This document shows positions 326 through 46,905 of a DNA stretch of 64,000 nt, piece by piece. The position numbers and the translations under genes were made by a program. The notes under the pieces were generated by a model, which saw only the letters and a program-made list of their open reading frames with translations, made no database searches and had not been told where the DNA came from. Source of the stretch: Promethearchaeota archaeon (GTDB taxonomy: Archaea; Asgardarchaeota; Lokiarchaeia; Sigyniarchaeales; SOKP01). The stretch spans positions 1 through 64,000 of the forward strand of contig JALGVJ010000024.1 of assembly GCA_029838195.1 (NCBI GenBank), written 5' to 3'. Within the stretch, counting starts at the first letter, position 1. The number at the start of each line of letters is the position of its first letter.

Positions 326-434
326 GGCCCGGTACGGGAATTGAACCCGTCTCTAGGGATTTCTGCTCTGTTCAATTGCTCATTCTAAAAAATGATTCAC
401 AGTCCCCAATACTAACCACTATACTAACCGGGCC
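326..434 (-). tRNA. tRNA-His (GTG) with a 36-nt intron at 361-396 (after position 37)
   Basis: Acceptor GCCCGGT/ACCGGGC, encoded G-1 and C73 discriminator (His identity), T arm ACGGG-TTCAATT-CCCGT, anticodon stem GGGGA/TCCCT, loop CTGTGA|A. BHB: central CUGU:GCAG, bulges GA|A and AA|A. Confidence 0.95.
361..396 (-). other. BHB-type tRNA intron (36 nt)
   Basis: Removal restores a 7-nt anticodon loop and 5-bp stem; 4-bp central helix with 3-nt bulges. Confidence 0.9.
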
Positions 435-21289: not shown

Positions 21290-22102
21290 TTATAGCCCTT
21301 TCGGACCTTGCTCGTAAATCTCATATGCTTCATCAACAGAGGCATTTTCGTGAACAATCGCTCGGACGGCTTGAATCATGCCTATCGGACTATCTGATTG
21401 AAAAATATTTCTTCCCATATCTACGCCTACAGCTCCCTTATCAACAGCATTTTTGGACATTTGTAAGGCGTCCCGCTCCGGAATCTTCTTACCTCCTGCA
21501 ATGACAATCGGCACCGGACAAATGCTCGTTACATCTTCAAAATTATCGCAATAATAGGTTTTTACAAAGGTTGCGCCCATTTCGGCAGCTAATCTGCTTG
21601 CCATGCCCAAATAGCGCGCATCTCTTACCATATCTCGTCCTACAGCTGTAACTGCAAGTACTGGAATGCCATATTCTTGCCCCCAATTGACCAATTTCGA
21701 AAGATTCATGATGGTCTGCTTTTCATACTCTCCTCCTACGAATATTGAACACGTAATCGCCGAAACGTTCAAACGAATTGCATCCTCGATCGTTACATTA
21801 ATTTCTTCATTAGATAGTTCCTTTAACATGCTCGCACCAGCTGAAACTCTTAAAACGATGGGAATGTCCGAGTCAGGGCTCACGCAACTACGGAGCATCC
21901 CTCTCGTGAGCATGAGAGCATCAGCATACTGAAATAAAGGTTCTAAATCTCCAAAGCATTTGAGTGTACCTGGAATGTTGCCAAAATATTCATGAACATG
22001 CATGAATCATGCACGTTTTCCATGATCTACGGCAAGCATCACGCAACGTCCCGTTTTAGGCTTTATAATTCTTGAAAGACGGTTTTGCATTCCCCAATCC
22101 AT
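21290..22102 (-). CDS. Class I aldolase / LsrF-FbaB-like thiolase-aldolase, coding region interrupted by a 30-nt BHB intron (21989-22018)
   Basis: Upstream frame [28 protein letters not shown] joins [30 protein letters not shown] after intron removal; matches LsrF-type layout. Confidence 0.88.
21989..22018 (-). other. Putative BHB intron in a protein-coding gene (30 nt)
   Basis: mRNA GAU-CAUG-GA|A-AACGUGCAUG-AUU-CAUGCAUGUU-CAUG-AA|U-AUUU: 10-bp inner helix, CAUG:CAUG central helix, 3-nt bulges, 4-bp outer helix; contains in-frame UGA. Confidence 0.85.
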
Positions 22103-31256: not shown

Positions 31257-31882
31257 CTACTTTTCTCCCTCCTTTAATTTATTAAGAAATTCTTGAGCCT
31301 CTTTTTTTCCCAATTCAAATGCTTCTAAATTCTTTTCCAAAGCTGATTTGGGAACAAATTCTTTAATTGTCTCTATAGCGGCCTCCTCAGAAAAAAGCCC
31401 GGAGAGAACGGTAAACGCTCCAAACAAGATGGTGTTGCCATATACCCGATCCCCGAACTTTTCTAACGCCATTTTCTGAACCGGAATCGCCAACGATTTT
31501 ACTCGTGCCGCTGTCTTGAACTTGCTTATCGTGGAAGGATCCCATAATAAAAATCCCGTATCTTTTCCCTTCTTTAACTGATTTTTTTTGACATCTTTCG
31601 CCGCCTCCTCAGATAAAATGATCAAAAAATCATAGGGCTCCAAGGCTTTTGGATAATCTATGAGTTTTGTTTCCCTATCTCTATCCACCACGACCTCAGC
31701 CCAACATTTTCCTCCCCGTGCAGATGCTGAATAAGCTTCTGTTTGCGTGGCAGCCAAGCCCTCGTGGATAGCACTTGCCATGGTGATCATCTTCGAGAGG
31801 GTGATAACGCCATAGTCTTTAAGAGGATATCTCTTTAAATTTGACCACCAAACCCGGAAATCCTAATCTCATATCTGTCCAT
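31257..31882 (-). CDS. korC: 2-oxoacid:ferredoxin oxidoreductase gamma subunit (KorC-type), interrupted by a 29-nt BHB intron (31812-31840)
   Basis: Upstream MDRYEIRISGFGGQ joins GVITLSKMITMASAIHEGLAATQTEAYSASARGGKCWAEVV; ATG at 31882 follows the korB stop at 31888. Confidence 0.9.
31812..31840 (-). other. Putative BHB intron in a protein-coding gene (29 nt)
   Basis: mRNA GGUC-AA|A-UUUAAAGAG-AUAUC-CUCUUAAA-GACU-AU|G: 8-bp inner helix with one bulged A, GGUC:GACU central helix, 3-nt bulges; unspliced reading hits UAA two codons after the junction. Confidence 0.85.
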
Positions 31883-44709: not shown

Positions 44710-46905
44710 TTGATTAATACTGATATCAAGAAAAATATTGAAGAGTATAAGCATGAGATTCAAAAGATAAAACAAAAAATAGAAGAATTGGAACAATTTG
44801 AGAATAAGGATAATAGTTTATTTGAGAGACTGGAATATTTATATCATCAAGTAATCTTTAACATTGAAAAACTACTTACAGAATATTCCAATTTTAGTCT
44901 TTTAGAATTTGATGAAAAAATTATAGAAGAAAAAATAAATTTTCAACACGAACTAGCGCTATATTTTGAGAAATATTTGAATATCACAGAAAAGTTGAAA
45001 TATCATGGAGAAATCCACTACTCTAATTATTTAAAATTAAATAACTTATTATATGAAGATTATGAAAATATAAGAAATCAGATAATTCATGATAACCCAA
45101 CCATCAGATACGATTTTGATACTTTTGAAAAAGAGATTAAACCAAACTTCTACAAAAAATTTATTGATAATTTAGACAAGGCAATCAATAGTTTAGAACA
45201 AATGATTTCGGATCCTAAAAAGAAAGCCTCAGATAAAAATTATTTTTATAGAGAAAATTATGAAGTTTTGGGCGATTTATATTTGCATAAAGCATTACTA
45301 ATTAAAGATATTGAAGCTGATGAAACCAATTACTTAAGTGAAGTCAAAAAAGCATTAGATCGATATAATCAAGCTATTAACTTTGAAAGGCTATTGAAAA
45401 AATTGAATAAGAAATATTTATCATACAAAAAGCAAGATTACATGCGAATATTCAATAATTTTCTTTATATCGATAAATTGGGAAATCTAAAAAAGATCAC
45501 GAATTTAGTAGATAAAAAAAATCATGTGGAAAAAAAGTTCAAAATTTGGGAAAAATTAACCTATAAAAGATTTGATACTAAACCGCTTAAAGGAATGAAA
45601 GATTTTTATCCTCAAGACTTAAGATTAGTAAAGTATATCTTATCTATTGTTGATGAGGTTGCTGAATTATATGGATATGAAGAATTTGAATCGCCTTTAT
45701 TAGAACCTCTTGAAATTTTTGCCGCGAAATCTTCACGTGAACTTGTTAATGAGCAATCATTTTACATTGAAAAATTTGAAGATCAAAAAATAATTCTTAT
45801 TCCAGAATTAACTCCTTCTCTTGCCCGAATGGTTGCGGCTAAATTTCAAGAATTAAAGAAACCTATTAAATGGTTTTCTGTTCCCACGTGTTTCAGATGG
45901 GAACAGCCTCAACGTGGAAGATTAAGAAGCTTTAAACAAGTTAATTTCGATATCCTCGGAGAGGACAGCCTTTACGCAGAGTTGGAAATATTTAACATAA
46001 TTATTAACATTTTGACAGGATTAAATGCCACATCTGCGCAATTTCAGATATATTACAATAGCAGGCGATTCATAGATGCACTTTGCGACCTTGTTATTGG
46101 TATTCCTAAAGAGAAAATGCCATTAGTTTATAAAATACTCGATAAATCCGATAAAATGGAAGAGCAAGAATTTGAAAAATACGTGATAGACACGTTTGAG
46201 GAGGAGAGAATCATCCAAGGAATTTTAAAATTAAAAAATAGCAATAAAATAGAAGATTTATTAAAGAAATTTGATGAGATCCCTCTTGAATTTTATGAAT
46301 CAAAAGGATATGAGGAATTAAAAAAATTGGAAAATTTAATAGAAATATCAGGCATCTCGGAATATTGCTCGTTCTCCTCCAACATCGTGAGGGGATTAGA
46401 TTATTATACGGGAGTCGTGTTTGAAGTGTTCGATACGGGGGAGAAAAATCGAAGAGCGATTTTTGGAGGAGGGCGATACGATGATTTACTCTCTCTTTTT
46501 TCGGATGAGCCCTTATCTGGCATTGGATTCGGGATGGGCGTGCTCATAGTACAATTATTTCTTGAAACTTATGGATTACTTCCCCCCGATATAAAGGAAA
46601 AAGATTATTCGGATACCATCTATATTACTTGCGTGGACGAAAGCGTGGCGGACTATGCCTTGCAAATCGCACGACTAATACGCAAGGAAAACATTCCCTG
46701 TATTATTGATTATCGATTTGGAGGATTAAAAAATCAGTTGAAAAAAGCAAGTGATCTTGGGGTTTTGATCACTTTGATCATTGGACCAAAAGAGAAAGAA
46801 CAAAATAAAGTGAGCGTCCGAAACATGACCACCGAGAAGCAAACCACTATTGTTCTTAAAGACCTCATCTCGGAGATTTTTAGCATTCTTGAGGAGCAAG
46901 AATGA
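44710..46905 (+). CDS. hisS: Histidyl-tRNA synthetase with ~290-aa N-terminal helical extension (TTG start)
   Basis: KPLKGMKDFYPQDLRLV…WFSVPTCFRWEQPQRGRLRSFKQVNFDILG…SSNIVRGLDYYTGVVFEVF…GGGRYDDLL. Confidence 0.92.
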   Translation: MINTDIKKNIEEYKHEIQKIKQKIEELEQFENKDNSLFERLEYLYHQVIFNIEKLLTEYSNFSLLEFDEKIIEEKINFQHELALYFEKYLNITEKLKYHGEIHYSNYLKLNNLLYEDYENIRNQIIHDNPTIRYDFDTFEKEIKPNFYKKFIDNLDKAINSLEQMISDPKKKASDKNYFYRENYEVLGDLYLHKALLIKDIEADETNYLSEVKKALDRYNQAINFERLLKKLNKKYLSYKKQDYMRIFNNFLYIDKLGNLKKITNLVDKKNHVEKKFKIWEKLTYKRFDTKPLKGMKDFYPQDLRLVKYILSIVDEVAELYGYEEFESPLLEPLEIFAAKSSRELVNEQSFYIEKFEDQKIILIPELTPSLARMVAAKFQELKKPIKWFSVPTCFRWEQPQRGRLRSFKQVNFDILGEDSLYAELEIFNIIINILTGLNATSAQFQIYYNSRRFIDALCDLVIGIPKEKMPLVYKILDKSDKMEEQEFEKYVIDTFEEERIIQGILKLKNSNKIEDLLKKFDEIPLEFYESKGYEELKKLENLIEISGISEYCSFSSNIVRGLDYYTGVVFEVFDTGEKNRRAIFGGGRYDDLLSLFSDEPLSGIGFGMGVLIVQLFLETYGLLPPDIKEKDYSDTIYITCVDESVADYALQIARLIRKENIPCIIDYRFGGLKNQLKKASDLGVLITLIIGPKEKEQNKVSVRNMTTEKQTTIVLKDLISEIFSILEEQE

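Follow-up and report, generated by a model that had tools for sequence, protein, structure and literature searches.

The tRNA-His(GTG) gene and two protein-coding genes of the window, i.e. the whole 64,000-nt stretch of DNA analysed here, carry inserts which are very probably archaeal bulge-helix-bulge (BHB) introns excised by the machinery that splices tRNAs. In the proposed scenario, the exon-intron junctions would form a 4-bp helix with a 3-nt bulge on either side; both bulges would be cut after their second base by a heteromeric EndA, and RtcB would ligate the exons, by which the His-tRNA would be restored and the two mRNAs would regain open reading frames across conserved motifs. Introns of this kind would be gained and lost in few protein genes of the lineage and would not constitute a genome-wide feature. 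The evidence comprises the structure of the genes, their intact orthologs, the geometry and covariation of the motifs, a signature of purifying selection in the exons and the encoded enzymes, and points to a tRNA-style mRNA splicing in this group which is apparently real though rare. Of the original prediction, the observation is confirmed in part and the interpretation supported in part.

The intron of the tRNA-His gene

The tRNA-His(GTG) gene extends from position 325 to 434 on the minus strand and matches the Rfam tRNA family RF00005 with 47.8 bits (E 4e-7), the alignment showing an insert around the anticodon. ARAGORN with intron options (-ifro) reports a 36-nt intron and calls His(GTG) or, in another register, Tyr(GTA). 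Read from the letters, the precursor is GGGGA-CUGUGA|[36 nt]|A-UCCCU, and removal of positions 361-396 leaves the stem GGGGA/UCCCU closing the 7-nt loop CUGUGAA with GUG at positions 34-36, which therefore is the anticodon. The choice between His and Tyr is decided in favour of His by the genome-encoded G434 (G-1), which stands opposite to C325 (C73) and forms with it the identity pair of tRNA-His. The gene combines the tRNA fold, the GTG anticodon and the G-1:C73 pair of an archaeal tRNA-His with a 37/38 intron, and the intron, predicted with this length and place after position 37, is genuine.

Its central helix is CUGU/GCAG and its bulges are GA|A and AA|A. On the exon side, the 5-bp anticodon stem serves as flanking helix; the relaxed intron side consists of a 6-bp hairpin, from which ca. 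13 unpaired nucleotides lead to the 3′ strand of the central helix, and only 2 bp are flush. Taken alone, the intron is of an ordinary type common in archaea: it has the position, the 3-nt bulges, the 4-bp central helix and the cut after the second bulge base of archaeal 37/38 BHB tRNA introns, and differs from them in nothing essential, its intron side being relaxed. Introns were found in about 13 of the 24 tRNA genes detected in this genome (anticodon calls are approximate), which is in line with other Asgard classes; tRNA introns are a known trait of Asgard archaea, and genomes from two other classes carry them in 92-95% of the tRNA genes (PMC11291895).

A search of this draft genome with the mature tRNA-His gave three matches, two among the matches listed being the halves of this gene, consistent with its predicted status as sole GTG His isoacceptor. 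The tRNA-His gene is contiguous in the relatives G040, G063 and G052 and broken elsewhere in others (G015:C23:125993-126096, G007:C4:3218-3321, G039:C1:537451-537550 and G045:C21:9594-9677), the break following query base ca. 47 or ca. 33 and the inserts measuring ca. 26-28 nt. The tRNA-His intron of the window is therefore recent or labile, and the differing break positions suggest a rapid intron turnover within one tRNA.

The two interrupted protein-coding genes

Two mRNA introns had likewise been predicted, without coordinates, and were located on the minus strand at 21989-22018 and 31812-31840. A scan for the motif combined with frame restoration found the former directly and the latter with a looser outer helix; homology alone, with the motif ignored, gave the identical two breakpoints.

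The first intron resides in an LsrF-like (DhnA-type class I) aldolase/thiolase gene (21290-22102; exons 22102-22019 and 21988-21290) assigned by NF006081 and orthologs. It is 30 nt long, lies at the junction VDHG|YFG and contains an in-frame TGA, which is reached inside the intron if the message is not spliced. The relatives' aldolases are continuous across VDHG-YFG where the window has 30 additional bases, a comparison by homology in which the motif was not used. The spliced product scores 402 bits against the NCBIfam model NF006081 (cut-off 297), and uninterrupted orthologs in relatives are up to 91% identical. The motif is composed of the central helix CATG/CATG, the bulges GA|A and AA|T and a 10-bp intron helix, and upon shuffling of the intron letters at the site fixed by homology it passes the same test in 0.06% of trials. 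Compared with the G015 ortholog, 26, 10 and 144 changes are found at codon positions 1, 2 and 3, respectively; the gene is therefore under purifying selection, as expected of a working gene.

The second intron interrupts the gene of a 2-oxoacid:ferredoxin oxidoreductase gamma subunit (31257-31882; exons 31882-31841 and 31811-31257), assigned by PF01558, NF006323 and orthologs. It is 29 nt long and shifts the frame at the junction FGGQ|GVI, so that a TAA is reached without splicing; the relatives' genes are continuous across FGGQ-GVI where the window has 29 additional bases, again by homology without use of the motif. The spliced product scores 93.9 bits against the Pfam POR family PF01558 and 121 bits against NF006323, the latter under the cut-off of that model, and uninterrupted orthologs in relatives reach 79% identity. 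Here, the central helix is GGTC/GACT with one G-U pair, the bulges are AA|A and AT|G and the intron helix is flush with 5 bp; shuffled letters at the homology-fixed site pass the same test in 0.11% of trials. Judged by gene structure, both inserts are genuine pre-mRNA introns of the BHB type, as their removal restores a conserved protein and intron-free orthologs exist, which supports the prediction for either gene.

Alternatively, both genes might be decaying pseudogenes or assembly errors in which the 29-30-nt inserts stay. The assembly is indeed a Lokiarchaeia draft of 4.5 Mb with an estimated contamination of 7.87%, and the aldolase gene of G008 (L066, G008:C144) contains two in-frame TAA codons at conserved residues near FVGGEYEKQ with no insertion, which shows that damaged genes or errors in the sequence are indeed encountered; these stops were rejected as an intron and ascribed either to point mutation of the copy or to an erroneous sequence. 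We nevertheless regard this alternative as very unlikely for the window genes. The inserts are precise with intact protein on either side, the interrupted aldolase is under strong purifying selection, other assemblies carry same-site inserts of differing sequence, and helices covary (see below). An assembly error is unlikely because the same intron sites occur in independent assemblies. Moreover, besides the interrupted copies, no close ortholog and no intact second copy of the aldolase or gamma gene was found among the matches listed for this genome, the others being ca. 31% identical.

Common and opposing features of the BHB motifs

With the two mRNA inserts taken as introns, the three window introns (tRNA-His, aldolase and gamma) can be compared. 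They have the central helix, the bulges and an RA|A 5′ bulge in common and measure 29-36 nt, as predicted. The architecture claimed to be shared by all three holds with respect to the central helix, the bulges and the cut position, but not for the flanking helices, which are reversed: in the tRNA-His motif the exon-side helix is strong and the intron side relaxed, whereas the mRNA introns of the window have a flush and strong intron-side helix (5-10 bp) and a weak exon-side helix (2-4 bp). The canonical hBHBh′ form with both flanking helices is not found in either kind, tRNA-His being devoid of a flush intron-side helix and the mRNA introns having a weak exon-side one, and both represent relaxed forms. 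By geometry only, the 4-bp central helix between 3-nt bulges is present in tRNA-His and in the 17 mRNA introns described below, with one or two G-U pairs in the central helix of some introns. Among the relatives' mRNA introns, 5′ bulges other than RA|A also occur, namely AG|A, AG|T, AC|A, TC|A and AA|T. The BHB structure on its own is not specific enough for intron detection.

mRNA introns in related Lokiarchaeia

The relatives compared include Candidatus Lokiarchaeota. The majority of the aldolase and gamma orthologs are uninterrupted; in some Lokiarchaeia, introns sit either at the sites known from the window or elsewhere in these genes. Altogether, the 17 mRNA introns read are distributed over 7 sites and 4 genes; each measures 29-36 nt and combines a 4-bp central helix with 3-nt bulges. 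The aldolase intron at VDHG|YFG recurs in G011 and G003; further aldolase introns are located at VD|MGRN (G011, G003, G065, G052, G033, G004 and G002) and at AGG|KK (G003). Gamma introns were found at FGGQ|GVI and SAAR|GG in G004 and G024. Two additional carrier genes encode, as we presume from reading the sequences, an AMP/thymidine phosphorylase and an aldehyde:ferredoxin oxidoreductase. The phosphorylase intron at DKHST|GGVPG is supported by a complete reading in G011, and the genes of G003, G008, G017, G028, G031 and G033 have in-frame stops and extra length near this site or are split at about residue 175. The oxidoreductase intron is located at FGLCGL|CKLPWND in G003.

Same-site inserts in other assemblies differ in sequence, and helices covary between species. 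For the aldolase site VD|MGRN, with sequences of seven genomes, 95.9% of the cells are paired and 5 pairs are changed on both sides; none of 500 shuffles scored as high, and sliding the partner by 1-3 columns reduced pairing to 24-44%. The covariation at VDHG|YFG is not significant, because three sequences are too few. In eight introns tested against letter shuffles, the motif at the fixed site was reproduced in 0.02-0.18% of trials each.

Splicing machinery

The presence of a splicing machinery, as demanded by the original prediction, is borne out, as a full set of EndA and RtcB is encoded. The EndA alpha subunit (L001) has its best match in Aeropyrum pernix EndA (3p1z, E 6e-36) and retains Tyr143, His151 and Lys182; its K60-P61-R62 segment aligns to K44-P45-R46 of the A. 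pernix enzyme, loop residues which are important for cleavage and specificity (PMC6379350, PMC12397907). The second subunit (L002) has lost the catalytic His. With the catalytic Tyr/His/Lys, the loop Lys60 and a second, non-catalytic subunit, sequence features expected of a broad-specificity (alpha-beta)2 EndA are present. As in the crenarchaeal (alpha-beta)2 enzymes, the two subunits are separate and the catalytic one keeps the loop Lys-Pro-Arg (PMC12397907); unlike there, the second subunit is nearer to the alpha type (5x89, 1a79) with the catalytic His lost. Relaxed motifs are reported to be cut efficiently by (alpha-beta)2 and epsilon2 EndAs (PMC6379350). The type of EndA had been named as a check on the prediction and speaks in its favour: by its sequence, the enzyme apparently belongs to those EndAs for which cleavage of relaxed motifs is established, and it is presumably of broad specificity, on which cutting would rely because the exon-side helices are weak. 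Two EndA genes are present in most of 66 genomes. A partial third EndA gene of ca. 106 aa, near the non-catalytic subunit in sequence, was also noticed (L003, G000:C53:22042-22209). RtcB is complete, matching PF01139 with 553 bits over positions 1-426 of 426. From the known biochemistry we infer that the mRNAs would be cut, ligated and translated in the spliced form.

Instead of being spliced out, the inserts might be skipped by the ribosome, either through translational bypass or through frameshifting at a hairpin. Known translational bypass elements are short hairpins, and every mRNA insert resembles them in this respect. However, the hairpins fit the endonuclease motif with its 3-nt bulges and 4-bp helix at all 7 sites, tRNA introns fall into the same class of geometry, the genome encodes both EndA and RtcB, and judged from the junctions no take-off or landing codon is common to the sites. 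Bypass is thus hardly credible, and splicing by EndA and RtcB is the preferred explanation.

Relation to known archaeal introns

As of 2009, confirmed archaeal pre-mRNA splicing was restricted to cbf5, with predictions elsewhere (PMC2738675). In the searchable literature, outside of which most subscription papers and preprints lie, we found neither an archaeal gene confirmed after cbf5 nor a report of Asgard mRNA introns. The kind of intron is already known; the carrier genes and the lineage appear to be new. Unlike the crenarchaeal cbf5 intron, those described here reside in genes for an aldolase, an oxidoreductase gamma subunit, a phosphorylase and an aldehyde:ferredoxin oxidoreductase, belong to a different phylum and occupy several sites per gene, and cbf5 itself is uninterrupted in the Lokiarchaeia genomes searched.

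We consider it rather probable that BHB introns of ca. 30 nt are actively gained and lost in enzyme genes throughout the Lokiarchaeia, are excised by means of RtcB and an (alpha-beta)2 EndA carrying the broad-specificity loop, and favour codons of conserved motifs (FGGQ|GVI, VDHG|YFG, DKHST|GGVPG and FGLCGL|CKLPWND) as in crenarchaeal cbf5. If true, pre-mRNA splicing in several genes would thereby be reported from Asgard archaea for the first time. A Lokiarchaeon is an Asgard archaeon and as such related to the ancestor of eukaryotes; BHB introns in several metabolic genes would mean spliceosome-independent, tRNA-pathway introns of protein genes in those archaea which are most closely related to eukaryotes. 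Such introns would also explain “broken” Asgard genes which gene callers split or discard, and their presence or absence between close relatives would open intron gain and loss to direct test.

Frequency of mRNA introns in the genome

The original prediction further held that mRNA splicing may be widespread in this genome and proposed a scan for frame-restoring BHB motifs against controls. Over 0.56 Mb, such a motif-plus-frame scan gave no excess over controls with the removed length shifted by 1-2 nt, likewise when codon bias was added, which is here too weak for telling coding frames apart; a scan of this type therefore cannot settle the intron frequency. The homology scan covered 0.94 Mb, about a fifth of the genome, against ca. 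2 Mb of relatives and tested 253 genes, two of which are interrupted. Both are inside the window, where 36 genes were tested, and none of the 217 tested genes outside is interrupted, which corresponds to a rate of about 1% or less of the conserved genes and does not support a widespread occurrence. In G011, two of 83 tested genes are interrupted, with three introns. Frame breaks caused by antisense ORFs and upstream stop codons were rejected as introns.

It might still be argued that scores to hundreds of genes carry BHB mRNA introns which the sample missed, given two introns among only 36 tested genes of the window and signs of introns in three genes of G003 and two of G011. We consider this unlikely in view of the uninterrupted genes outside the window, the choice of the window because of its introns, and the absence of introns from cbf5 and the ATP synthase alpha/beta family domains in these Lokiarchaeia genomes. 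From the genes compared, the mRNA introns are apparently sparse in this genome, yet recurrent in few genes across the Lokiarchaeia family.

Two minor observations concern unusual reading frames. The window ORF 44710-46905 (731 aa) has an N-terminal part apparently fused to a histidyl-tRNA synthetase-like part, and its G015 counterpart (L130 near 13404) shows a break of ca. 44 nt at the boundary, which may be an intron, a gene boundary or a fusion. The ORFs of the A-type ATPase catalytic subunit in G011, G013, G015, G023, G073 and G083 comprise ca. 1124-1175 aa compared to ca. 610 expected, with the domain match beginning at position 27, as expected of an intein near the P-loop.
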